Positions 35,062 through 52,025 of a stretch of 64,000 bases of DNA are shown piece after piece. Numbering within the stretch: the first letter of the stretch is position 1; each line of letters begins with the position of its first letter. The notes beneath the pieces are model-generated. The model did no database searches. It was not told where the DNA came from and was given only the letters and a program-made list of their open reading frames with translations. This DNA comes from Gemmatimonadota bacterium (GTDB taxonomy: Bacteria > Gemmatimonadota > Gemmatimonadetes > Gemmatimonadales > Gemmatimonadaceae): the NCBI GenBank assembly GCA_028287235.1, contig JAQBQB010000002.1, positions 1 to 64,000 of the forward strand, written 5' to 3'. The position numbers were made by a program, and so were the translations under genes.

Positions 35062-37506
35062 TTACCGCGTCCAGATCGCGATCAGCCCGCACATCTTCCC
35101 GGCCCCGACGCCGCCATACTGGAGCGGAATCGTCGCCGCGCCGGCAAACACCTCCACGCCGTGGATCTCCTCGGGCCGCGGCAGCTTGCGCAGGTCGTAC
35201 GACATCGCACCAGGATCGTTCCGCATCAACAGGCCGTCGACCATCACCGACATGAAGCACGGATCGCCGTTCTTGTTGGCCAGCATCGTCCGTCCCGACA
35301 CGGCGACCACCCGATCGATGCGATCGGTGACCGTCATCGACGGCACACCCGTCAGCATCTGCCAGATTTCGGTGGGATTCCGCTTGACGATGTCCGCGCG
35401 CGAGAAGGAGGCGGCCGCCGCGTGATTCAGACGCCGCGTCTCGAACTCCTCGAGGCGTGGGAAGACCCGCCGGTCGCCGACGATGCGAACGGTGTCCAGC
35501 GTCGGCGCCGCGGCGGCGCTCAAGATGATCGGCACGGTGTTTCGCCCGGCCTCCACCGTGGCGGCAACGAGTCCGGCCGTGAACCCGACTCGTCGCGCGC
35601 GTACGCTCACGACGCCCGGTGCGACGTCGGCCAGGAGCGCCTTTCCGCCTGCACCGGTGACGAGCGTGCGCGCCGCGCCGCTTTGCGGCGTGACTTCGAG
35701 TGTCACGTCCGGCAGCGGCGTTCCACTCGCGTTGACGACGGCGAGCTCCACGAGCGCGCTCGCGCGGTTCTCGCGTCCCAACATGAGATCGAGCTGGCGC
35801 TGCGCCTCGGACGAGCTGTGTAGCACGAGGTCGACTGCGCCGAACGGGACCCCGTCCAACCGCGCTTTCTGAATGTCCGCCCCGGCGTCTGCAACGCCGC
35901 GAACGGAGAGGACTCGCTGTTGAGGAACGCCGCAGGCCTGCCAGTAGCCGAAGTCGTCGGTGAGCACGCCGACCGTGCGAGCGCGCCCGGCGATGTGGCC
36001 GTTCACGTTCGTGACGTCGCTGTCCCACCCGATCGTGACGGCAGCTTGTTTGATGACTCGCCCTTGTTCATCGCTGACGCGGCCGCGCAACATCCCCTCT
36101 CCATTGGCGATGGAATCGCGCGGGCACGCCTTGGCCAACGCGTCACGCGCGCTGGGTAGAAATAGCGAATCGACGTGAGTGTCCTGCCGAGCCTCCACCT
36201 CGCGCACCGTTGGGGGCACGCCGAGCGAGTCCATGAAAGGGGTTCGCACGCGGGCGCGATACCGACCCTCGAGCACCGGCGTGAGCTGAATGCGCCCGAG
36301 CGGATCGGCCGCCGCGGTGTAGTCGGTGCCGTCGAGCGTGAGCGTGGCGCCAGTCGCCTTGAGCAGCGTGTCGCGCGTCAGTACTTGAACGGCAACGTCC
36401 GCGCCGGCCGCCTGGTAGACAAGGCTGTCGTGCCGCAGCACTCGCGTCACTTCGCCACCGTTCGTTTGCACCGACCGAAGCACGAGGGGCGTCAGCGACA
36501 TGAGCGTGCGCCGTGTGCCGTCGGCGGACCGGCGCGCGCTCGCGACGAGCTGCGGCATGCGAACGTTCCAACGGCTCACCAGCCAGATCCCGTCCATCAC
36601 ACGCAGGAAGTCCACGCGTCCGCCCGGGTTGGCTGCCATCGCGGCGTCGGGAAGGCTCGTATACCGAAACTCTAACGTGCGCAGCTCGGCGCTCGTACGA
36701 TCGAGCCACAGCGTTCCCTCGATGTCGTGCTTGTCGCGGCGCTCGCGCGTCGGTTGAAACGCCACGCCGATGAGTCCCGCGTCTCCTGCCGGCGCTGTCG
36801 CGAGCCGGAAGCAGTGCTCGGAGACGAACTCCTCCGACAACAGCACGTCGGCATCGGGGGCGAAGAACATCGTCGCACCGCTGTCCTCGGCGACGTAGCC
36901 ACGTTCGCTCAGTGTCCGCGCCGGCAAGCTGCGAAATGCGTGCGTCGTCGGGTGGCGCGAGGTGCGTACGTGCTGCTCGCGCACGAGGCGCGCCGTCGAA
37001 TCGAGCGTTCGCTCGTATTCGATCCACTCGGCGAACAGCGGCGCGGCTTCCTCGCTGAGTTGGCTCGAGAGCATCGCCTTGCGCGCCTCTTCCCAGACGC
37101 GCGCCACCGCCAGTCCCGAATCGGCGTTCACACGGCAGGTCTCTCGCTCTCGTACGTTGACGGCAGTGAGCGCAACGGGCTCGGCGGCGAAGAAGATGTG
37201 GATCGTTTGCGTCGCGCCAGCGGCGACGGTCACCGACGGGCCCTGAGTTGGGCGATAGCCGATGCGGAGCACCTCGAGGTTGTACTGACCGGCCGATGGC
37301 AGGCGAAGCACGAAGGTGCCGCGGGCGCTCGTGAGCGTGCGCGCAGCCGTCGCTCCGTGTGCGTCGGTCGCGAAGACGATGGCGCCGGCGACGTACGTCG
37401 TGCTGTCGCGCAGCACGACCGAGCCCTCGATGACCTGTGCGGTGAGCACCCGCGCGGTCATCGTGAATAGAGCGAGCACCTTCAGGATGCGCAGTGGCCG
37501 CCCCAT
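35062..37506 (-). CDS. Secreted carboxypeptidase-regulatory-like protein with TonB-plug-like C-terminus, no barrel
   Basis: 814 aa with a signal peptide (MGRPLRILKVLALFTMTARV, cleavage after LTAQ). Beta-sandwich CarboxypepD-regulatory repeats occur near residues 25-110, about 475-560 and about 590-670. The middle (about 120-330) has the conserved RDKHDIEGTLWLDRTSAEL region followed by DGIWLVSRWNVRMPQL. The C-terminal 130 residues are a TonB plug-like domain ending EVFAGAATIPLQYGG and CGLIAIWTR. No outer-membrane beta-barrel follows. An AGGAG SD sits 6 bases before the ATG. Role unknown; it shares its C-terminal signature with the gene at 39802-40617. Confidence 0.8.
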   Translation of the reverse strand: MGRPLRILKVLALFTMTARVLTAQVIEGSVVLRDSTTYVAGAIVFATDAHGATAARTLTSARGTFVLRLPSAGQYNLEVLRIGYRPTQGPSVTVAAGATQTIHIFFAAEPVALTAVNVRERETCRVNADSGLAVARVWEEARKAMLSSQLSEEAAPLFAEWIEYERTLDSTARLVREQHVRTSRHPTTHAFRSLPARTLSERGYVAEDSGATMFFAPDADVLLSEEFVSEHCFRLATAPAGDAGLIGVAFQPTRERRDKHDIEGTLWLDRTSAELRTLEFRYTSLPDAAMAANPGGRVDFLRVMDGIWLVSRWNVRMPQLVASARRSADGTRRTLMSLTPLVLRSVQTNGGEVTRVLRHDSLVYQAAGADVAVQVLTRDTLLKATGATLTLDGTDYTAAADPLGRIQLTPVLEGRYRARVRTPFMDSLGVPPTVREVEARQDTHVDSLFLPSARDALAKACPRDSIANGEGMLRGRVSDEQGRVIKQAAVTIGWDSDVTNVNGHIAGRARTVGVLTDDFGYWQACGVPQQRVLSVRGVADAGADIQKARLDGVPFGAVDLVLHSSSEAQRQLDLMLGRENRASALVELAVVNASGTPLPDVTLEVTPQSGAARTLVTGAGGKALLADVAPGVVSVRARRVGFTAGLVAATVEAGRNTVPIILSAAAAPTLDTVRIVGDRRVFPRLEEFETRRLNHAAAASFSRADIVKRNPTEIWQMLTGVPSMTVTDRIDRVVAVSGRTMLANKNGDPCFMSVMVDGLLMRNDPGAMSYDLRKLPRPEEIHGVEVFAGAATIPLQYGGVGAGKMCGLIAIWTR

Positions 37507-37584
37507 CCAGCTCCTACCCAGAAGTTAGAGCTTGTATATGCACGGGCCGCGGGCTTTCGTCCAGACCGGCGCGACCGCGCGCCG

Positions 37585-39801
37585 TCACGACGTATTTCGA
37601 TGCCCGTCGAGATCGGCGATCGCGCGAACCGCCAGCGGATAGTGAGGTGCCACCTCGAGTGCGCGCCGAAATAGGCGCCGAGCCAGCTCACCATTCCCCA
37701 TCGACGCATTGGTGATGCCCAATCGCGTCAGGGCCTGTGGATCGGCGGGGCTCAACCGTACGGCTCGCTCGAGCGACTGCTTCGCATCGGCGAACCAACC
37801 GATCGTTTGCAGCGCACGGCCCACGAGGACGTATACCGTGGGATCGCTGGAGTTGGTCGACAATGCGGTTCCAGCGGCCTGGTTGGCGTGATCGACCTGA
37901 CCCGCCTGCGCGTACGCCAAGCTCAATAGCGCGATGACCGCGGGCGCCGGCTCGAGACGAACGGCACGCTCGAGATACGGAATGGCCTCTGCGCCGCGCT
38001 CCTGTTCTACCAGCGCCGCTCCCAGATACCGGCGCGTGTCGATCCGTGTGGAGTCCAGCGCGGCAGCCCGCTTCAGCTGAACGATCGCCGAGTCGATCTG
38101 ACGCAGAAGCAGAAGGTCGAGGCCCAGCGTGGTCAATGATTCGCCGCCGGGGCTGAGCGCGGCGATCTGCCGTACATAGGGCAGCGCGCGATCCGGCCGG
38201 CCCAGAGCGAGCTGCACCTTGCCCATCTTGTCGGTTGCCGCGGAATCCGCGGGGTGAAGACGCAGCGCCTGTCCGAGAAGATCTTCCGCGTCGCGCAGCC
38301 GGTGCTGTTCCATCGCGATCGCCGCGCTTCGAATGCGCGCCGGCGCATACGCCGGATCGACGGCCATCGCGCGGCGCAACAGGCTATCCGCCGACGACAG
38401 GCGCGGCGGATTCTCACGCATGCGGACGGCAGCGAGGTTGTCGTACGCCCGCGCGTTCAATGGATATCTCTCGATCGCGTCTCGCCACAGCGCGTCGAGG
38501 TCGAGATACATGCTGCTTCGGCGATGGCTGGCGGCGGTCAACGAAGCGAGCAGCACCACCAGCCCAGCCAACGCGACGTACCGACGGCCGGCGCCCGGAT
38601 TGCGTGCCACAGTGGTGGCACCCGTGGCCCTGCGTCTCAGCCACTCGGCGCCGACGACCGCGAGCACGATGACCGCCGCGAGCGCGAGATAGATCCGCCG
38701 CTCCGCCGCGATCTCGGTGCGAATGGGAACGATGCTCGACGACGGCGCGAGCAGCAAGAAGAACCACGCGCCCAGGAAGCCGAGCCACCGCCAGGCGGCG
38801 TGTCGCCATGCGACAATGGTTGCGATGCCGGCCGCCGTCAACAACAGCAGTCCTGGCACGCCAATCAAGCCGTTCACTGGATCACGGCCGTAGTCGAACG
38901 ACAACCCGCTTGGCCACACCGCGAGGCGGAGGTAGTGGGAGATCGCCCACGCCTGACTGTAGAAATAGCGGTACCACGACATGCCGGCTCCGAAGCCGGC
39001 AGTTTGCGCGCGCGCGCCGCTGACGACGAGCGCCACCGACCATGCGGCGGTTGCGAGCAGCGCCACGTAGAGCCACCGGCGAGCGCGATGCCGCCAGCCT
39101 TCCGTCCAACTCGAAGTCAGGAACGCGCGATCGTAGAGGATCACCATGATCGGCGCCGTGATCATGACTTCCTTGCTGCCCATGCCCACCAGACTGAACG
39201 TCACCGCGAGCACGGACCACTTCAGCGTGCGCGCCGGCTCGTCCCACGCGCGTATCGCGGCGTAGAGCGTCGCGAGATAACAGACGGAGACGAGGAGCTC
39301 GGTACGTTGGCTGACGTAGTCGACGGCTTCGGTCTGTATCGGATGCACCAACCAGACGAGCGCGGAGACAAGGGCAACGCGGTCGGCTGCGTCGCGCCAA
39401 CTCTCAGGTATTGCGCCGAGCCGCATCGTCAGCCGGATCACCGCGAAGAGCAGCAGCGCGGCGAGGACGTGAAGCGCGATGTTGACGGCGTGATAGCCGA
39501 CGGTCTGCTCGGGAGCGACCGCGTCGGGGCTCTGTGCAATGCCGAGCGAACGATTGAGCGCGTAGTTCAGCGCGAATGAGTAGTTCGCGATCGGACGTCC
39601 GGATGCCGCCGTCCCGAGCGCGGGAGTGTGCAGCAGCGCGGACGGCGGCCAGAGCGTTCGAATCGTCGTGTTGGACGCAATGGCCGGCCCGTCGTCAAAG
39701 TCGAAGGGCGCCTTTAGTGCCGGCCCAAACGCCAGATACGCGAGCGTCAGGAAGAGCGCGAGAAGTCCAACTCGCCGCATCGCGCGCGACGCAACCGCCA
39801 C
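37585..39801 (-). CDS. TMTC-like multi-pass membrane protein with C-terminal TPR repeats
   Basis: 738 aa from a GTG one base after the upstream stop, with an AAGGA SD; an ATG at 39780 is an alternative. About ten transmembrane helices fill residues 10-430. The first extracytoplasmic loop has the acidic motif FDFDDGPAIASN, and WLVHPIQTEAVDYVSQRTELL follows further on, as in the TMTC/PMT-type (GT-C) protein family, whose animal members are O-mannosyltransferases. ERRIYLALAAV precedes the last helices. The C-terminal 300 residues are tetratricopeptide repeats, about eight units. It may glycosylate exported proteins. It lies between two plug-only genes with tight spacing. Confidence 0.85.
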   Translation of the reverse strand: MAVASRAMRRVGLLALFLTLAYLAFGPALKAPFDFDDGPAIASNTTIRTLWPPSALLHTPALGTAASGRPIANYSFALNYALNRSLGIAQSPDAVAPEQTVGYHAVNIALHVLAALLLFAVIRLTMRLGAIPESWRDAADRVALVSALVWLVHPIQTEAVDYVSQRTELLVSVCYLATLYAAIRAWDEPARTLKWSVLAVTFSLVGMGSKEVMITAPIMVILYDRAFLTSSWTEGWRHRARRWLYVALLATAAWSVALVVSGARAQTAGFGAGMSWYRYFYSQAWAISHYLRLAVWPSGLSFDYGRDPVNGLIGVPGLLLLTAAGIATIVAWRHAAWRWLGFLGAWFFLLLAPSSSIVPIRTEIAAERRIYLALAAVIVLAVVGAEWLRRRATGATTVARNPGAGRRYVALAGLVVLLASLTAASHRRSSMYLDLDALWRDAIERYPLNARAYDNLAAVRMRENPPRLSSADSLLRRAMAVDPAYAPARIRSAAIAMEQHRLRDAEDLLGQALRLHPADSAATDKMGKVQLALGRPDRALPYVRQIAALSPGGESLTTLGLDLLLLRQIDSAIVQLKRAAALDSTRIDTRRYLGAALVEQERGAEAIPYLERAVRLEPAPAVIALLSLAYAQAGQVDHANQAAGTALSTNSSDPTVYVLVGRALQTIGWFADAKQSLERAVRLSPADPQALTRLGITNASMGNGELARRLFRRALEVAPHYPLAVRAIADLDGHRNTS

Positions 39802-40617
39802 TCAATATCCGTCCTTCGTCCAGACCAGGATCACGCCGCATCCACGATTGTAGCCGTTGAACTGCGGAGGAATCGTCGACGATCCGGCGTACACCTCGAT
39901 AGCCGCAATCTCCTTGGGCGACGGCAGGAGGTCGAGATTGAACGGCGTCGGCAGCGGCACCTGGTCGAGATACACCTGCATCGGACACGCGCCAAGCTGC
40001 GGATTGCCGCCCTCGCGCTGGCTCAATGCGTAGTACTCTGGCATCGAGCTCGTGAGACTCGGTGACACGTTCACCGACATGAACTTTCGAAATAGCTCGG
40101 TGGCAAACACGGTGTTCGCCTTGTCGATCTCCTCACTGCCCAGGAACTGGCCCTGGCCCAACCGCCGCCGGGCTTCGAATTCGCGCATCTTGGTCGACAG
40201 CGCCTTTTCCGTGACCACGACCGCGCCAAGCGTCTGCACGGCCGGAGTCAGGGTGTACGACAGGCGCAGCGTATCGGACTTCGGCACTTCCACGACGCCG
40301 GACGTGGGACTGAATCCCACGCGTTTCACGATGACCAAATACTGACCGGGCGGAACGTTGGTGATTCGAAACCGGCCGTTCGGCCCCGTGCCCACGCGAA
40401 TCTTCGTGCTGAGAATGGACACGAACGCCGCGTGAATCGGCACGAGGTTCGTATCGCTGACGATTCCGTCGATCGTGCCGAACACACGCGCGTTGCGGAT
40501 GGTGTCGCCGCTCGCCCGCGGGAACGGCGGCCTTCCCGTCTGCGCGTCGATCGGCTGTGCGAGCAGCGCGGCGGCCAGGGCGAGCGGAAGCAGGCGGAGA
40601 GTCAAGGGTCGATGCAT
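39802..40617 (-). CDS. Short secreted CarboxypepD-regulatory/TonB-plug protein without barrel
   Basis: 271 aa with a signal peptide (PLALAAALLAQPIDAQ). A CarboxypepD-like sandwich follows (residues about 45-130, with NVPPGQYLVIVKRVGFSPT), then a plug-like domain (about 150-265). The C-terminus reads IEVYAGSSTIPPQFNGYN, then CGVILVWTKDGY, matching the end of the 35062-37506 protein. Most TonB receptors continue with 22 strands here; this one stops. It has no ligand-binding motif I can name. It starts a compact three-gene minus-strand unit downstream of a hairpin that closes the SusCD operon. Confidence 0.82.
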   Translation of the reverse strand: MHRPLTLRLLPLALAAALLAQPIDAQTGRPPFPRASGDTIRNARVFGTIDGIVSDTNLVPIHAAFVSILSTKIRVGTGPNGRFRITNVPPGQYLVIVKRVGFSPTSGVVEVPKSDTLRLSYTLTPAVQTLGAVVVTEKALSTKMREFEARRRLGQGQFLGSEEIDKANTVFATELFRKFMSVNVSPSLTSSMPEYYALSQREGGNPQLGACPMQVYLDQVPLPTPFNLDLLPSPKEIAAIEVYAGSSTIPPQFNGYNRGCGVILVWTKDGY

Positions 40618-40662: not shown

Positions 40663-40705
40663 CAGAAGCCGGAGGACCGGATCCAGCTCCGGCCTCCGGC
40701 TTCTG
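40663..40705 (-). terminator. Hairpin closing the SusCD operon
   Basis: The outer 13-bp stem CAGAAGCCGGAGG / CCTCCGGCTTCTG (40663-40675 with 40693-40705) encloses an inner CCGGA / TCCGG stem around TCCAGC. On the minus strand GTTTCC follows, a weak U-tract, so termination is likely but not certain. It sits in the 125-bp gap after SusD. Confidence 0.65.
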
Positions 40706-40742: not shown

Positions 40743-42194
40743 TTATGGCGCGCAGTTGTTCTGTCCGTTGGGTCCGAGCAGATCGCCCGTCGCGCCGACA
40801 CGCACCAGGCACTCGCCCTGGGGAATCGGATTGACCTTGGCCACGAAGTTCTTGTTCGGCCCCGAGGCGATGTCGAGCGGCAGTTGGCTCAGGCGCCCAT
40901 AGCGGCGCATGTCGATCCAGCGATCGCCTTCCATCATGAGCGAGTAGCGCTTCTCGTACAGGATGCCCGTGAGGATGTCGTCGGTCGACGACGCCGCCGT
41001 CAGGGTGGACGCCGGCAGATTGCCGGAGTTCTGGCGCACCGTGTTCAGGTCCGCGATGGCACCGGCCTTGTCGCCGGTGCCGAGCCGGGCCTCGGCGCGA
41101 ATCAGGATCAATTCTTCGTTCCGGATGAGCGGGATCGCCGAGGACGTCGTCGGCCAGTTGCTGAATCCGAGCGTCGACGACCCGGTCGTGGGCCCGTCAG
41201 TGGTCGACGGTCCAGTGCGCGACGGGAGCCCGGCGCGGATCTTCGCCGCGTAGCGATCATCCGGCTTGCCGTCTGCCTTGAGCTGCACGTCCGACTGGAA
41301 CGACATGTGGGCGTAGAGGTTCGTATTCGTCGCCTGCGTCAGCGGATTCGGCGTATCCGGCGCGGGCGCATATGGATCGTACACACCGACGTCGAACGCT
41401 GCCCGGCTGGTCGCGCCTGCGTTGAGGAATGACGCAGACAGCGCCGTCAATGACGACTGCCACGCTGCCGCTCCCCCGCCAGACGTCGCATAGTGCGCCG
41501 CCGCCTTCGCCTTGAGGGCCCGATTGAACTGCGCGAAGGTGGTCGGGGTGTTGAATCCAGCGAACCCAGTGTGGAGTGTGAACGGGAACGCCGCGCCCCC
41601 TGCGGCAAGGTTCGTTGCCGCAGCGTCGAGCGTTCCGAGAATGAACTTGTACGCCGAATCGCGCGATACGAACGGCGACAATTTGGCCGGGTCGTCCTTG
41701 ACCTCGACGATCGCGCCCAAGGTATCGTGCGTCTGGACGATCTCGAAGACCATCAACGCTTCGAGGGTCTGTGCAAAGCCCAGCGACGACGCCTTCTGCG
41801 CTGCCGTCAACGTCGCACTCGCGGCGATGTTGTTCTTGAAGTTGAAGATGTCCCGAAGGGCGCCGTATTCTCCGCCCCAGGGGCCGGTGGCGAAGCCCGA
41901 TGGATCGAGCTTCGTGACGCCGCCGATCGAAATTCCGAGCAGCGGGTGCGTCACGTTTCGCCCTTCCTGTGGCGTGAACGTGTACGACTCGCGGCCGAGT
42001 ACTCCGGCGTTGGTGATGAATCCGCTGCGCGTCGATCGCTGGTCTGCCAGCAACCCCGTTGCGAACAGCTGCAACGCCGTGGGATCCGCGCTCGCGCCGC
42101 TCACCGTGGCGGTGTTGGGATTCGTGATGTTGAGATCGGACGCTCTGCACGAGGCCACCGCCACGAGCAGAGTCGCGCCAAGCAGCTTGCGCAT
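40743..42194 (-). CDS. SusD/RagB family outer-membrane lipoprotein
   Basis: 483 aa from ATG 42194, chosen for its lipoprotein signal MRKLLGATLLVAVASC and an SD (GGAG, 10 bases upstream); an ATG at 42245 is rejected. The mature protein starts with the SusD-type LNITNPNTATVSG and is helix-rich throughout. Late motifs SNWPTTSSAIPLIRNEELIL and EKRYSLMMEGDRWIDMRRY are typical of SusD/RagB. SusD proteins cap the SusC porin and capture glycans or peptides. It lies 54 bp downstream of the SusC gene. Confidence 0.95.
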   Translation of the reverse strand: MRKLLGATLLVAVASCRASDLNITNPNTATVSGASADPTALQLFATGLLADQRSTRSGFITNAGVLGRESYTFTPQEGRNVTHPLLGISIGGVTKLDPSGFATGPWGGEYGALRDIFNFKNNIAASATLTAAQKASSLGFAQTLEALMVFEIVQTHDTLGAIVEVKDDPAKLSPFVSRDSAYKFILGTLDAAATNLAAGGAAFPFTLHTGFAGFNTPTTFAQFNRALKAKAAAHYATSGGGAAAWQSSLTALSASFLNAGATSRAAFDVGVYDPYAPAPDTPNPLTQATNTNLYAHMSFQSDVQLKADGKPDDRYAAKIRAGLPSRTGPSTTDGPTTGSSTLGFSNWPTTSSAIPLIRNEELILIRAEARLGTGDKAGAIADLNTVRQNSGNLPASTLTAASSTDDILTGILYEKRYSLMMEGDRWIDMRRYGRLSQLPLDIASGPNKNFVAKVNPIPQGECLVRVGATGDLLGPNGQNNCAP

Positions 42195-42248: not shown

Positions 42249-45200
42249 TCAGTACCCGAGGTCGATGCTGAAGAAGAACTGGCGGTTGCTCGGGTACGGT
42301 CCGAGGTCGATGAAGCGATTGAAGTTCGCGTTGCCGAAGTTGTTGAACTCCGGATCGAAGCTCCAATAGTTGGTCTTGGTGAACAGGTTGCGTCCCTGGA
42401 CCGAGATGCGCATGTCGCGCGCGCGCACCACGTTCGCGAACTTCGCCGGCGCCTGGTACGAGACGTTCACTTCGCGCAGCTTGACGAACGTGCCGTTGTC
42501 GATGTACGGCGCGATGTTGTTCGCGCTCCAGTTGCTGTAGCGGAACTGGCCGAGCGTCTGCTTCGGATCGGGCGACGGCGCGGTGTAATCGCGAGAATTA
42601 CCACCCTCGTCCCAGATCTGGTTGGTCATGTCGGCCGTGTAGCCGCCCACGCGCCAGTCCACGAGTCCGGTGATCGTGATGCTCTTGTAGCGGATCGTGT
42701 TGAGGAACGACGTCTGGCCAAGCGGGTTGGCGTCGGCGATGATCGAATCGCGCACCGTGCTGCCGGCAACCGTCTGCCCCGGCGCAACGCGATGGCAGGG
42801 CTGTCCGTCCGAACCCGTGCCGACCACCAGCTGGCCCGAGGCATTCGTCGTGTTGATGCAGCTGAACGGCACGTTGCCCCAGATGTACGTGGGGCGGCTG
42901 CCGAGCGCGATACGGTTACGGCCGAACGTCGCGCCGAACGAGCCGCCGACGGCGAACGACGGAACCGACAGCTTGTCGATGTACTGAACGTTGTGCTGAT
43001 ACGTCGTGCGGAAGGTCCACTCCAGGTTGCGCGTGCTGATCGGCACGAGGTTCAATCCAGCCTCGAAGCCGCGCGTGGACATCTGCCCGCCGTTGATCGT
43101 CTGGCTCGGCAATCCGGAGCTGGCCGGCAGCGGGAACGTCACCAGCAAGTCCTTGATCACTCGCTCATAGTGCGTGAGCTCGACTGACGCCCGTCCACGG
43201 AACAGCGACGCGTCGACTCCATACTCCTGCTCGTTCATGACTTCCGGCTTGATCGCCGGATTGCCGACCGACGTCACACTCGAACCGGAGAGTGAGCCCA
43301 AGCCGCCGATGACGCCGCCGGTGGCCAGTGTCACATCGCGGACGCCGTAGTTCGGGCGGTTGCCTGACTTACCGAACGAGGCGCGGAACTTCACCTCGTC
43401 GAGCGCCGACGTGAACCGACCGAGCGGCTCCACGAACCGATAGCTCGCCGAGTACTTGGGGAACGTATAGAACTTTTCGCGATCGCCGTTCGCGCTGCCA
43501 CGGTCGGCACGGACGCCGACGGAGAGCGCGAGCTTTTCATCGAGACCGATGATCTGCTCGTTGAAGTATCTCGATTGATCGAGGAATTGTTGGATCGCGT
43601 TGCTTTCGGCGACATCCGTTCCGTTCGTGGCGACCTGACGAGTGGGGGTCAGCCCGCGAAGGCGGATGTTGTAGCTGTTCAGCTTCTGCGACTCGAGGGT
43701 GCCGCCGACCGACGTCTGTGCTGAGTTCAACCAACGCATGTTCGGCGAATACGTCCACACGCCGTTGATGCTTTGATTGAGGAATTTGCTGTCCGCGCTG
43801 AGCACCTGCGACGTGCCGTTGAATCCGTCTGCCGGCTCGAACTGAAGGTAGTTCGGCGAATACTGCGTGCCTTCGAGCTGGAAGCGATCGACACCGCCGA
43901 TATAGGTCAGCTGGACGGTGTTGTGCACCGTCGAGAGGGCGGAGTACCCGAGGCGGATGTTGGCGCTCTGCCGCCAAGTATCCTCGTTGTTCGTGATTTG
44001 GCTAATGACGTCGAACGGATTGGCCGTTCCTGAACCGCCGCCGTTCATCCACATGAACACCGGGCGACCGGTGAGCGGATCGATCTGCCGAATGTCGTAG
44101 ATCGCCGGCGCGTACCCGAGCGCATACGTGGGACTGATGCCCGCGTTGTCGTTGTTGCCAAGTCCGTCCTGCACGAAGTTGTGCGTGAAGTCCACGCCCA
44201 CGCTCACGGTGAACTTGTCCCCGAGCGTCTGATCGAGATTGATGCGTCCGGACGTGCGGCGCGCACCCGTGTTCATCTCGACGCCCTTACTCTGCTTGTC
44301 GTTCAGGGAAGCAAAGAACTTGGCCGTTCCCACGCCGCCCGACGACGACAGCACCGTTTCCGTGCTCGGATCGTGGTTGCCGTAGAATTGGCCCTGCCAG
44401 TCGTATAGCGGGCAGGTCGTGGCGCAGTTGACCTTGGCGAGCGAATCCGCATGCACGGATGAACCAATCCACGGCTTCACGTCCGCATAGTTCGTGAACT
44501 GGCGCGAGCCCAGCAGGCGCGTGGCCTGCTGCGTCCCGACGCGCTGCGTGAAGTTGAAACGCGGTGCGCCCGCCTTACCCTTCTTGGTCGTGATGACGAC
44601 CACGCCGTTGGTGGCGCGCGAGCCGTAGATGGCCGTAGCCGCCGCCGACTTCAGGACCTCGATGTTCTCGACGTCGTTCGGGTTCAGGTCGGCCAACCGA
44701 TTGACCACCTGATCCTGCGCCGTCGCCTGCGAGCCGCTCGAGCGCGAGATCGAGGCGAGACCGCCAGGGATCGACGCATTGGACATGATGATGCCGTCCA
44801 CCACGTAAAGCGGATCGCCCTGCCCCAGGATCGACGTGGCGCCGCGGATCTGGATCTGCATTCCGCCGCCCGGCACGCCGCTGTTCTCGAAGATGGAAGC
44901 GCCGACGACCTTACCCGCAAGGTTGCCCTCGATGGACTTGGCCGGCACGGTCAGCAGCTCTTCCGCCGACACCGACGCGATCGCCGTCGAGGCGTTGCGC
45001 TTGTCGACCGTGGTGGCCTGACCGGTGACGGTCACGCCCTCGAGCTGCAGCACGTCCTTGTCGAGCGCGAAGTCCGCCGTCGACTGGCTGGCCGTCACCT
45101 GCACCGTCACGCGCTTGAAGCCGATCGCGCGCGCGAGCAACGTCGCACCACCGTTGGGGATCTTGAGGCGATACTCGCCGCGCTCGTTCGTGCGCACGCC

Positions 45201-45356
45201 GAGCTGCGCTCCAACGATGCCGACGGTCGCCTCCGTGACGGGCGTACCCGTGCCGGCCTGCGTGACCTTTCCTGTGATCTCGCGAGTCTGCGCCGCGAGC
45301 AGCGCGGGCACGGACGCGAGAACGAGGGCAAGCGATACCACTATTCGACGACGCAC
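42249..45356 (-). CDS. SusC/RagA family TonB-dependent outer-membrane receptor
   Basis: 1035 aa from GTG 45356, preceded by GAGGTG; further upstream starts lie outside the signal peptide. Signal VVSLALVLASVPALLAAQ. Domains in order: CarboxypepD-like (about 25-100), TonB box/plug (about 105-240, with GNLAGKVVGASIFENSGVPG and DPLYVVDGIIMSN), then a barrel ending in FFFSIDLGY with terminal aromatic. SusC proteins import glycans or peptides with SusD and TonB energy. Substrate is unknown: no glycoside hydrolase lies next to the pair. Confidence 0.96.
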   Translation of the reverse strand: MRRRIVVSLALVLASVPALLAAQTREITGKVTQAGTGTPVTEATVGIVGAQLGVRTNERGEYRLKIPNGGATLLARAIGFKRVTVQVTASQSTADFALDKDVLQLEGVTVTGQATTVDKRNASTAIASVSAEELLTVPAKSIEGNLAGKVVGASIFENSGVPGGGMQIQIRGATSILGQGDPLYVVDGIIMSNASIPGGLASISRSSGSQATAQDQVVNRLADLNPNDVENIEVLKSAAATAIYGSRATNGVVVITTKKGKAGAPRFNFTQRVGTQQATRLLGSRQFTNYADVKPWIGSSVHADSLAKVNCATTCPLYDWQGQFYGNHDPSTETVLSSSGGVGTAKFFASLNDKQSKGVEMNTGARRTSGRINLDQTLGDKFTVSVGVDFTHNFVQDGLGNNDNAGISPTYALGYAPAIYDIRQIDPLTGRPVFMWMNGGGSGTANPFDVISQITNNEDTWRQSANIRLGYSALSTVHNTVQLTYIGGVDRFQLEGTQYSPNYLQFEPADGFNGTSQVLSADSKFLNQSINGVWTYSPNMRWLNSAQTSVGGTLESQKLNSYNIRLRGLTPTRQVATNGTDVAESNAIQQFLDQSRYFNEQIIGLDEKLALSVGVRADRGSANGDREKFYTFPKYSASYRFVEPLGRFTSALDEVKFRASFGKSGNRPNYGVRDVTLATGGVIGGLGSLSGSSVTSVGNPAIKPEVMNEQEYGVDASLFRGRASVELTHYERVIKDLLVTFPLPASSGLPSQTINGGQMSTRGFEAGLNLVPISTRNLEWTFRTTYQHNVQYIDKLSVPSFAVGGSFGATFGRNRIALGSRPTYIWGNVPFSCINTTNASGQLVVGTGSDGQPCHRVAPGQTVAGSTVRDSIIADANPLGQTSFLNTIRYKSITITGLVDWRVGGYTADMTNQIWDEGGNSRDYTAPSPDPKQTLGQFRYSNWSANNIAPYIDNGTFVKLREVNVSYQAPAKFANVVRARDMRISVQGRNLFTKTNYWSFDPEFNNFGNANFNRFIDLGPYPSNRQFFFSIDLGY

Positions 45357-49724: not shown

Positions 49725-50870
49725 GTGAACGGTGAAGTGATCGGCCGCAACACAATCGCCGTACTGCTGGTTGGATGTGCAATGACACTGGGGGCGTGCC
49801 GTTCGACGTCCCCAGCGTCGCTTGCGCCGGCGCCGAATTCGGATTCAACACGCGCGCCGAAGGTCACGGCGCAGTTCTACGCGAACCGGCCCTATGGCAG
49901 CGAGTCGCAGTTCAATCCGTTCTCGCTGATCGTCAACGGCGGGTACGACCAGCTGCGCACCGCCGAGAACCGGCAGGTCTTCTCCCTGCCCTATCGCAGC
50001 GCGTTTCACACGGTGCTCTATACCGTCACCCATCCGGAGCCGGTGCTGCGGCACTACGGCTATAAGGATTGGCTGACGCACGAAGTCTTTCCGCTGTCGC
50101 TCAAGGGCTCGGGCGGCGGGCAGTGGTATCCGAACTACCAGTTGCACCTCTTCGCCGGCGGCATGACGTACTACCGCACCGTCGAGTGGTACGAGCAGCA
50201 CGGCGCGACGCACCCCCGCCTCGCTGCCGGATTCACCGTCTATGCGTGGCATCTCCTCACCGAGATGGTCGAGAGCAACGGCGTCTGCTGCGAGGACGAG
50301 GACGGACTCACGGACCTCTACATCTTCGACGCCGCCTCCATTCTGCTCTGGAACCAGGGCTGGATGCGCCGCGCGTTCAGCGGCCGCGTCGAGTTCACCG
50401 ACTGGCCCGGCCAACCGACCATCTCGCGTCCGAAGAACTCGATTGAGAACGCGTACATGATGGCGATGCTCCGCGTCCCGTTGCCGCGAACGGACGATTG
50501 GAAATTGATGACGACGATGGGCAACGCTTTTCTCTTCGGCGTGTCGGGGCGCGTCGGGAGAGACATGTGGCTGTCGGCGTCGGGAGGGTTCGACCCGTCG
50601 GACAATCCGGTGATCGATAGTCGAACGGGCGCGAAGACGGCGACGCTTCTGCCGAACGCTGGGTTGTTTCTCGACCGCCACGGCTCGCTGCTCGTCTCGT
50701 TCATCACGAAGGGCGGCAGCAGCAACGGGCCCACGTTGAACGTGTACCCCGGGGTTGTCGGATCGGGGGCGTGGTCGCCCGGGCTGTGGGCGCAGGGCGT
50801 ACGCGGCGGCGGTCTTCGGTTCGGCGTGGTCTCGAAATTCGGCATCGGGCTCGGCGGAGCTCGGCGCTAG
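49725..50870 (+). CDS. Lipoprotein of unknown function, tandem paralogue 1
   Basis: 381 aa from GTG 49725, directly after the M20 stop; a GTG at 49737 is an alternative, but the first matches its paralogue (MN start). The lipobox is MTLGAC. Conserved between paralogues are FNPFSLIVNGGYDQLR, YTVTHPEPVLRHYGY, LHLFAGGMTYYRTVEWYEQ, VYAWHLLTEM, CCEDEDGLTDLY and the Gly-rich beta tail GRVGRDMWLSASGG. No family is recognised. The histidine/tyrosine-rich core and acidic Cys-Cys segment suggest a folded, possibly metal- or ligand-binding surface protein. Confidence 0.82.
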   Translation: MNGEVIGRNTIAVLLVGCAMTLGACRSTSPASLAPAPNSDSTRAPKVTAQFYANRPYGSESQFNPFSLIVNGGYDQLRTAENRQVFSLPYRSAFHTVLYTVTHPEPVLRHYGYKDWLTHEVFPLSLKGSGGGQWYPNYQLHLFAGGMTYYRTVEWYEQHGATHPRLAAGFTVYAWHLLTEMVESNGVCCEDEDGLTDLYIFDAASILLWNQGWMRRAFSGRVEFTDWPGQPTISRPKNSIENAYMMAMLRVPLPRTDDWKLMTTMGNAFLFGVSGRVGRDMWLSASGGFDPSDNPVIDSRTGAKTATLLPNAGLFLDRHGSLLVSFITKGGSSNGPTLNVYPGVVGSGAWSPGLWAQGVRGGGLRFGVVSKFGIGLGGARR

Positions 50871-50879
50871 CACAATGGA

Positions 50880-52025
50880 GTGAATGACGTGACGCTCAAG
50901 TGGACCGCCCTATTGCCGATCGCGCTTCTCGTGGCCGCGTGCCAATCGGCGTCTCCACCGTCGCTTGGCCCCACACCGCAGCCGGACTCGATGTGTGACT
51001 CGGTGCGTGACTCGGTGACGCATCAGTTCTACTCCGGCAAGTCCTACGGAACGGAATCGCAGTTCAATCCGCTGTCGCTCATCATCAACGGCGGGTTCGA
51101 CGAGCTGCGCGTCAAGCAGAACCGGGACATTTTCAATCTTCCGTACGGCAGCATGTTCCACACGGTGTTCTACACCGTGACGCATCCGGAGCCCGTGCTG
51201 CGCCACTACGGCTATCAGAACTGGCTCACGCACGAAGTCTTTCCGCTCTCGCTCAAGCACGCCGGCGGCGGCCAGTGGACGCCGAACTACGAGCTGCATC
51301 TGTTCGCCGGCGGCATGACGTACTACCGCACCGTGGAGTGGTACGAGCAGCACGGCATTGGGCACCCGCGGCTGGCGGCGGGTTTCACCGTGTATGCCTG
51401 GCACCTGCTCACCGAGATGATCGAGAGCGATGGCCGGTGTTGCGAAGACGAGGACGGGCTCACCGACCTCTACCTCTTCGACTCGGGCTCGATCCTGCTC
51501 TGGAACCAGGCGTGGGTTCGGCGGCTGCTTCGCGACCGCGTGGAGTTCACCGACTGGCCGGGCCAGCCGACGCTGGCGCTGCCGTCGCATCGTTTAGAGA
51601 ACGCGTATATGCTAGCGATGCTGCGTGTCCCGGTACCGCGCGTCGACGAGCTCAGGCTCATGACGGTGATGGGGAGCGCATTTCTCATCGGGCCGTCGGT
51701 GCGCGTTGGCCACGAACTGTGGTTCTCCGCGGCGGGCGGCTACGATCCCGCGGAGAACCCGATCATCGATCCGCGCACGGGCGCACGGACGGCGACGCTG
51801 CTCCCGAGCGGCGGGCTGTTCCTCGATCGCAACGGATCGCTCCTCGCCTCGTTCGTCACGCGCGGCGGCGCCTCGAACGGACCCACGTTCAATCTCTACC
51901 CGGGCGTCATCGGATCCGGGCGCTGGTCGCCTGGGCTCTGGGCCCAGGCGGTGCGCGGAGGTGGGTATCGGTACGGTGTGGTGTCCAAGCTCGGCATCGG
52001 GCTTGGCGGGATTCGAGCGCGTTAA
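50880..52025 (+). CDS. Lipoprotein of unknown function, tandem paralogue 2
   Basis: 381 aa, the same length as paralogue 1 and similar over its whole length, by eye clearly above half identical. The signal ends ALLVAAC. It differs in an early insert, SMCDSVRDSVTHQFYSG, with an extra cysteine. It keeps VTHPEPVLRHYGY, LFAGGMTYYRTVEWYEQHG, CCEDEDGLTD and TDWPGQPT. It starts 9 bp after paralogue 1 with only a weak SD. Function is unknown; it probably acts with its neighbour at the outer membrane. Confidence 0.82.
   Translation: MNDVTLKWTALLPIALLVAACQSASPPSLGPTPQPDSMCDSVRDSVTHQFYSGKSYGTESQFNPLSLIINGGFDELRVKQNRDIFNLPYGSMFHTVFYTVTHPEPVLRHYGYQNWLTHEVFPLSLKHAGGGQWTPNYELHLFAGGMTYYRTVEWYEQHGIGHPRLAAGFTVYAWHLLTEMIESDGRCCEDEDGLTDLYLFDSGSILLWNQAWVRRLLRDRVEFTDWPGQPTLALPSHRLENAYMLAMLRVPVPRVDELRLMTVMGSAFLIGPSVRVGHELWFSAAGGYDPAENPIIDPRTGARTATLLPSGGLFLDRNGSLLASFVTRGGASNGPTFNLYPGVIGSGRWSPGLWAQAVRGGGYRYGVVSKLGIGLGGIRAR

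Follow-up and report, generated by a model that had tools for sequence, protein, structure and literature searches.

The window, a 64,000-nucleotide stretch of DNA from a Gemmatimonadota bacterium, contains a gene, designated plugS, whose secreted product is, by sequence and predicted fold, the front half of a SusC protein cut at the plug/barrel junction. This gene adjoins one orthologous SusC/SusD pair (SusCD) in most of the loci where that pair occurs within the bacterial family. On balance, we favour the view that one SusCD importer, likely for peptides, has plugS as a conserved third component, a soluble and probably periplasmic protein. Its identity and its linkage to SusC and SusD are well supported, and from these we infer how it might act.

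Table 1. Location of the genes, domains and residues discussed, in window positions
Feature	Position	Strand	Description
plugL	35062-37506	-	Secreted, 814 aa; CarboxypepD_reg repeats and C-terminal plug; lineage-specific neighbour
TMTC-like gene	37585-39801	-	738 aa; multi-TM GT-C-like N-terminus and C-terminal TPRs; likely start ATG 39780 (gene caller)
plugS	39802-40617	-	Secreted, 271 aa; SusC-type NTE, TonB-box-like segment and complete plug, without barrel
plugS plug domain, residues 150-270	39808-40170	-	Extends up to the plug/barrel junction (predicted fold)
plugS Cys260	39838-39840	-	Invariant in plug-only proteins (138/138); mostly N in receptors
plugS Cys211	39985-39987	-	Invariant in plug-only proteins (138/138)
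plugS TonB-box-like segment LGAVVV, residues 130-135	40213-40230	-	From family columns
plugS NTE, residues 45-127	40237-40485	-	CarboxypepD_reg-like, PF13620/PF13715 (Pfam and predicted fold)
13-bp perfect inverted repeat between SusD and plugS	40663-40705	-	Probable terminator or processing hairpin
SusD/RagB-family lid lipoprotein	40743-42194 (ORF start up to 42245)	-	PF07980, 1.7e-12
SusC/RagA TonB-dependent receptor	42249-45341 (ORF start up to 45521)	-	Own plug and barrel; TIGR04056, 1.1e-135

plugS and its SusC/SusD partner

The original prediction described plugS, the TMTC-like gene and plugL as a gene trio. The three ORFs are present on the minus strand, with gaps of 78 and 0 (or 21) bp, and the C-terminal signatures common to both plug proteins are exact (IPLQYGG..CGLIAIWTR and IPPQFNG..CGVILVWT). 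The CarboxypepD stretches and plug end ascribed to plugL were recovered in Pfam as three CarboxypepD_reg matches and a Plug match (6.8e-6, above the curated cut-off). For plugS, the CarboxypepD_reg assignment held in Pfam, and the plug had no Pfam match and was recognized by profile search and in the predicted fold. Both proteins are truly barrel-less, as had been proposed; no missed barrel frame is present, because plugL stops 12 bp from a converging amidohydrolase gene and plugS stops at the start of the TMTC-like gene. The original prediction did not mention the complete SusD and SusC genes that lie directly upstream of plugS, on the same strand.

The NTE of plugS was detected as CarbopepD_reg_2 (6.4e-11, Pfam), and its predicted structure superimposed on the NTE of SusCdex (9hfj; Z 12.4, rmsd 1.8, 80 residues). 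The TonB-box-like segment is in a position equivalent to that of the TonB box of Bt1763, VDEVVV (PMC7782687), and its L..V.V pattern is looser across the plug-only family (L 85%, V 66%, V 59%) than in receptors. The plug was modelled separately because the full-length model returned mostly NTE-like matches; AlphaFold2 without templates yielded a pLDDT of 87.5 for the whole protein and of 88.9, with a pTM of 0.82, for the isolated plug. The predicted plug matched that of Bt1763 (6z9a; Z 10.0, rmsd 3.5, 111 residues), and its 50 best solved matches were all TonB-dependent transporters; it resembled the plugs of SusC, FyuA, BtuB and RagA. Likewise, a profile built from 49 plugS relatives (A3), compared with PDB sequences, matched solved receptors from the N-terminal NTE domain through the end of the plug (9gbc residues 24-233, E 2.5e-18; RagA, 1.9e-6), and BtuB in its plug portion only (2e-3). 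No beta barrel follows the plug of plugS, with the next gene beginning immediately, and members of the family set mostly have 0-2 residues after the plug, the maximum of 39 being imposed by selection. It is on these profile matches and predicted NTE and plug folds that the assignment of plugS as a SusC front half rests. Compared with SusC/RagA transporters such as Bt1763 and RagA, plugS is alike in the order of NTE, TonB-box-like segment and plug, and in having SusC and SusD alongside, but it lacks the barrel and contains an invariant cysteine pair, a Trp and a Pro near the plug's end, and a conserved F..R(R)..G.G.F segment located between the box and the plug.

Orthologues of plugS were found in 56 of the 179 genomes of the bacterial family, and orthologues of the window SusD (identity of 51% or more) in 52. 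plugS adjoins SusCD in 46 of the 52 SusD-orthologue loci, which strongly supports the earlier proposal that a plug-only protein is linked to another receptor. Both genes occur in 51 genomes, SusD alone in one, plugS alone in five and neither in 122 (n = 179), a co-occurrence with a Fisher p of ~1e-37, although these genomes share ancestry and the counts are not independent. The 46 linked loci comprise 16 with plugS co-directional, after SusD, 26 convergent and four with plugS divergent from SusC; that the genes have stayed together despite rearrangement points to a functional link between plugS and SusCD. The linked SusC was at least 50% identical to the window SusC in every case compared, with the next paralogues at no more than 43%, and judged by these identities it is one orthologue throughout. 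In another genome of the same genus (G005, locus L067), the amidohydrolase gene lies directly after plugS, and the TMTC-like gene and plugL are absent. It is well supported that the real partner of plugS is SusCD, rather than the TMTC-like gene. This SusC has its own plug (Plug match 5.1e-15, Pfam), which rules out that plugS replaces a missing one.

An inverted repeat separates SusD from plugS (Table 1); of 14 co-directional SusD-plugS gaps, 12 contain stems of 8-17 bp that differ in sequence. Expression of the two genes may therefore be uncoupled, perhaps through separate transcription units; a sigma-70 promoter scan returned no match.

Peptidase genes recur near the plugS-SusCD module, with an S9 peptidase in the window, S15 in loci L124, L126 and L128, and M1 in L130; in L124, the plugS and S15 genes overlap. 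With these neighbours as the sole basis, the imported substrate is likely peptides and the importer would resemble RagAB.

The plug-only family

plugS belongs to a large, unannotated family of secreted proteins, which we name plug-only and which has ~20 genes in its own genome, beside ~45 full receptors (counted by eye). A pattern scan of 84,980 species yielded 248 relatives, the best 80 of which were gemmatimonadotal by record title, with one titled just 'bacterium'; by these best 80 of 248 the family looks gemmatimonadotal, and so far it has been seen only in Gemmatimonadota. A plasmid search located remote members on megaplasmids of Gemmatirosa kalamazoonensis, and a receptor match in Spirosoma. 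Barrel-less plug proteins were not described in the titles and abstracts that we searched, which lay outside the subscription literature.

The two family cysteines (Table 1) are mostly replaced by N at the same positions in eight full receptors compared, and are lacking in SusC plugs. Similarly, Pro133 and Trp149 (HMM columns) are 99% conserved among 139 unique plug-only proteins, whereas the eight receptors contain G and mostly T. Exactly two cysteines are present in the mature part (after residue 35) of 68 of the 84 short members. The natural reading is that the two invariant cysteines form a disulphide, which would stabilize a free periplasmic plug without a barrel. The surface location put forward in the original prediction was not indicated, with a lipobox in none of 65 full-length short members and an AxA-type signal peptide in 52 of them (crude rule). 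Most of the ~20 paralogues in the genome of the window are without an adjacent SusCD, so that the family overall need not work with one.

Several further arrangements were observed. Locus L243 (7704-12961) contains four same-strand plug-only genes in ~5 kb, of which three are consecutive. In five loci from soil Gemmatimonadetes (L248, L251, L273, L275 and L276), a plug-only gene is divergent from a SusC of a different clade, constituting a second SusC-linked group. Downstream of SusC/SusD-like genes, L088 (4133-4945) encodes a CarboxypepD and plug-like protein that ends in WGAILIVTR and is missing the final cysteine, and which may be another kind of barrel-less plug. Lastly, a receptor-like frame truncated by the end of the locus (L075, 3-1937) has two separate plug-like matches.

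The TMTC-like gene and plugL

Homologues of the TMTC-like protein (E up to 1e-50) were found as 17 copies in 10 of the 179 family genomes, and most copies lie elsewhere, several of them between trmD and rplS or close to rnhB, which speaks against the trio as a functional unit. All three genes occur together again only in genome G314 (locus L117), in the order plugL-SusC-SusD-plugS-TMTC, with plugL across SusC; the trio as a conserved system was consequently rejected. The TMTC-like gene thus adjoins plugS in two genera, those of the window and of G314. A plug-family gene lies at most 4 kb from 5 of ~18 TMTC-like copies, as compared with ~0.6 expected from the gene density of the own genome, in a post hoc and suggestive comparison.

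The original prediction further proposed that the TMTC-like protein may modify the plug proteins. The TMTC-like protein has a DD motif in its first external loop (D36-D37), invariant in 14 homologues, in which R166-x-E168 (M3), the KExxxT pattern of M4 and E367-R368-x-x-Y371 (M7) are also invariant or nearly so; its M4 reads K210-E211-V-x-x-T215, with V in place of T/Q (motifs RxD, KE(T/Q)xxT and ERxxY as defined for M3, M4 and M7 in PMC7801869). It shares with the eukaryotic O-mannosyltransferases TMTC1-4 (GT-C/PMT clan, PMC7801869) a membrane N-terminus, C-terminal TPRs, detected here by Pfam, and the motifs DD, RxD/E, KE..T and ERxxY, but lacks the SHK of motif M2 and is not a conserved partner of plug proteins. 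DUF1736 was not matched among the families listed for 14 members, PMT_2 was weak in two of the 14 (best 3.9e-4), and the N-terminal half of the family found no match among PDB sequences up to E 10. As the DD, RxE, KE..T and ERxxY motifs are carried, a GT-C-type glycosyltransferase is a fair guess. Its substrate is probably unrelated or broader, and the gene an occasional neighbour. Glycosylation of plug proteins by this enzyme has little support: the TMTC-like gene is absent from most plugS-bearing genomes, and only two of the ~20 plug-only proteins of the own genome adjoin one.

A second TMTC-like gene of the same genome (G000:C31:107515-109674, L034), 50% identical, is located between trmD and rplS, and G004 has one at the same site. 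G314 contains five copies (L194, L195, L196 and L117), one at a site resembling that of L034 and two in tandem on contig C414.

Orthologues of plugL are mostly solitary, and stand beside the same SusC in G314 and G315, preceding it. We take plugL to be a larger paralogue recruited to the SusCD locus in a few genomes.

Possible functions of plugS

In the levan SusCD of Bacteroides (Bt1763), a closed lid is always accompanied by a barrel without its plug. TonB-driven removal of the entire plug has been proposed; the spontaneous expulsion observed in detergent was, in the authors' view, probably not physiological. No function is known for the NTE (PMC7782687). The retention of a free NTE-box-plug protein alongside one SusCD is consistent with an accessory role, either at the mouth of SusC on the periplasmic side or on TonB. 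In our model, a SusC ancestor would have kept its front half (NTE, TonB-box-like segment and plug) and lost the barrel. The resulting protein would be exported to the periplasm, where its disulphide-stabilized plug could fold without a barrel, and it would act on the periplasmic side of SusC. Its target there would be either the barrel, at the stage of transport in which SusC's own plug is displaced, or TonB. In a more specific version, which we regard as quite doubtful, plugS would be a disulphide-locked spare plug in trans that inserts into the SusC barrel or guards it after TonB extracts the resident one, making a two-plug importer; other plug-only members would then be free plugs of other receptors. 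The Plug of the type 9 secretion protein SprA (PMC7463736), a periplasmic protein that has its own gene and seals a barrel in the outer membrane, provides an analogy, but with a different pore and transport direction, and we claim no homology.

The association of plugS with SusCD suggests an undescribed extra part of this machine. As a free, conserved NTE and plug partner of one SusCD, plugS is a natural soluble reagent for testing how a wide pore opens without leaking and how its plug returns, and also offers a test of the role of the NTE in SusC.

Other roles are compatible with part of these results. plugS could be a soluble ligand-binding protein, whose free plug takes up the imported peptide and hands it to peptidases or inner-membrane transporters. 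Such a role agrees with the linkage of plugS to a single SusCD and to peptidases of types S9, S15 and M1, including the gene overlap in L124, and the isolated plug of the FepA receptor reportedly retains ligand binding. Nevertheless, the most conserved residues (the Cys pair, Pro and Trp) look structural and a conserved ligand pocket is not apparent in the plug-only family, making a hand-off function rather unlikely. Similarly improbable is that plugS regulates on the TonB side, with its NTE and TonB-box-like segment competing for TonB and limiting the futile energizing of the neighbouring SusC. The NTE and L..V.V segment do follow the SusC order, and the NTE has been suggested to confer TonB specificity (PMC7782687), but conservation is lower in the box than in the plug body, a part that competition would not itself require.

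We consider it very unlikely that the plug proteins are surface adaptors O-mannosylated by the TMTC-like enzyme, as originally predicted. The adjacency of plugS and the TMTC-like gene in the window and L117, together with the post hoc excess of plug-family genes near TMTC-like copies, is outweighed by the disparity in their distribution (10/179 family genomes for the TMTC-like gene and 56/179 for plugS), the mostly unrelated contexts of the TMTC-like copies and the failure to find a lipobox or surface signal. Finally, a receptor-derived sequence halting at the plug/barrel boundary might be expected of decaying remnants of TonB-dependent receptors. This origin was rejected, as conservation contradicts it: the frames are open throughout in a family with 139 distinct members, carrying invariant residues absent from receptors, and synteny is conserved across genera.

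Elsewhere in the window, positions 49782-52025 contain an adjacent same-strand gene pair with similar starts (TAQFYANRPYGSESQFNPFSLIVNGGYD and HQFYSGKSYGTESQFNPLSLIINGGFD), apparently a tandem duplication.
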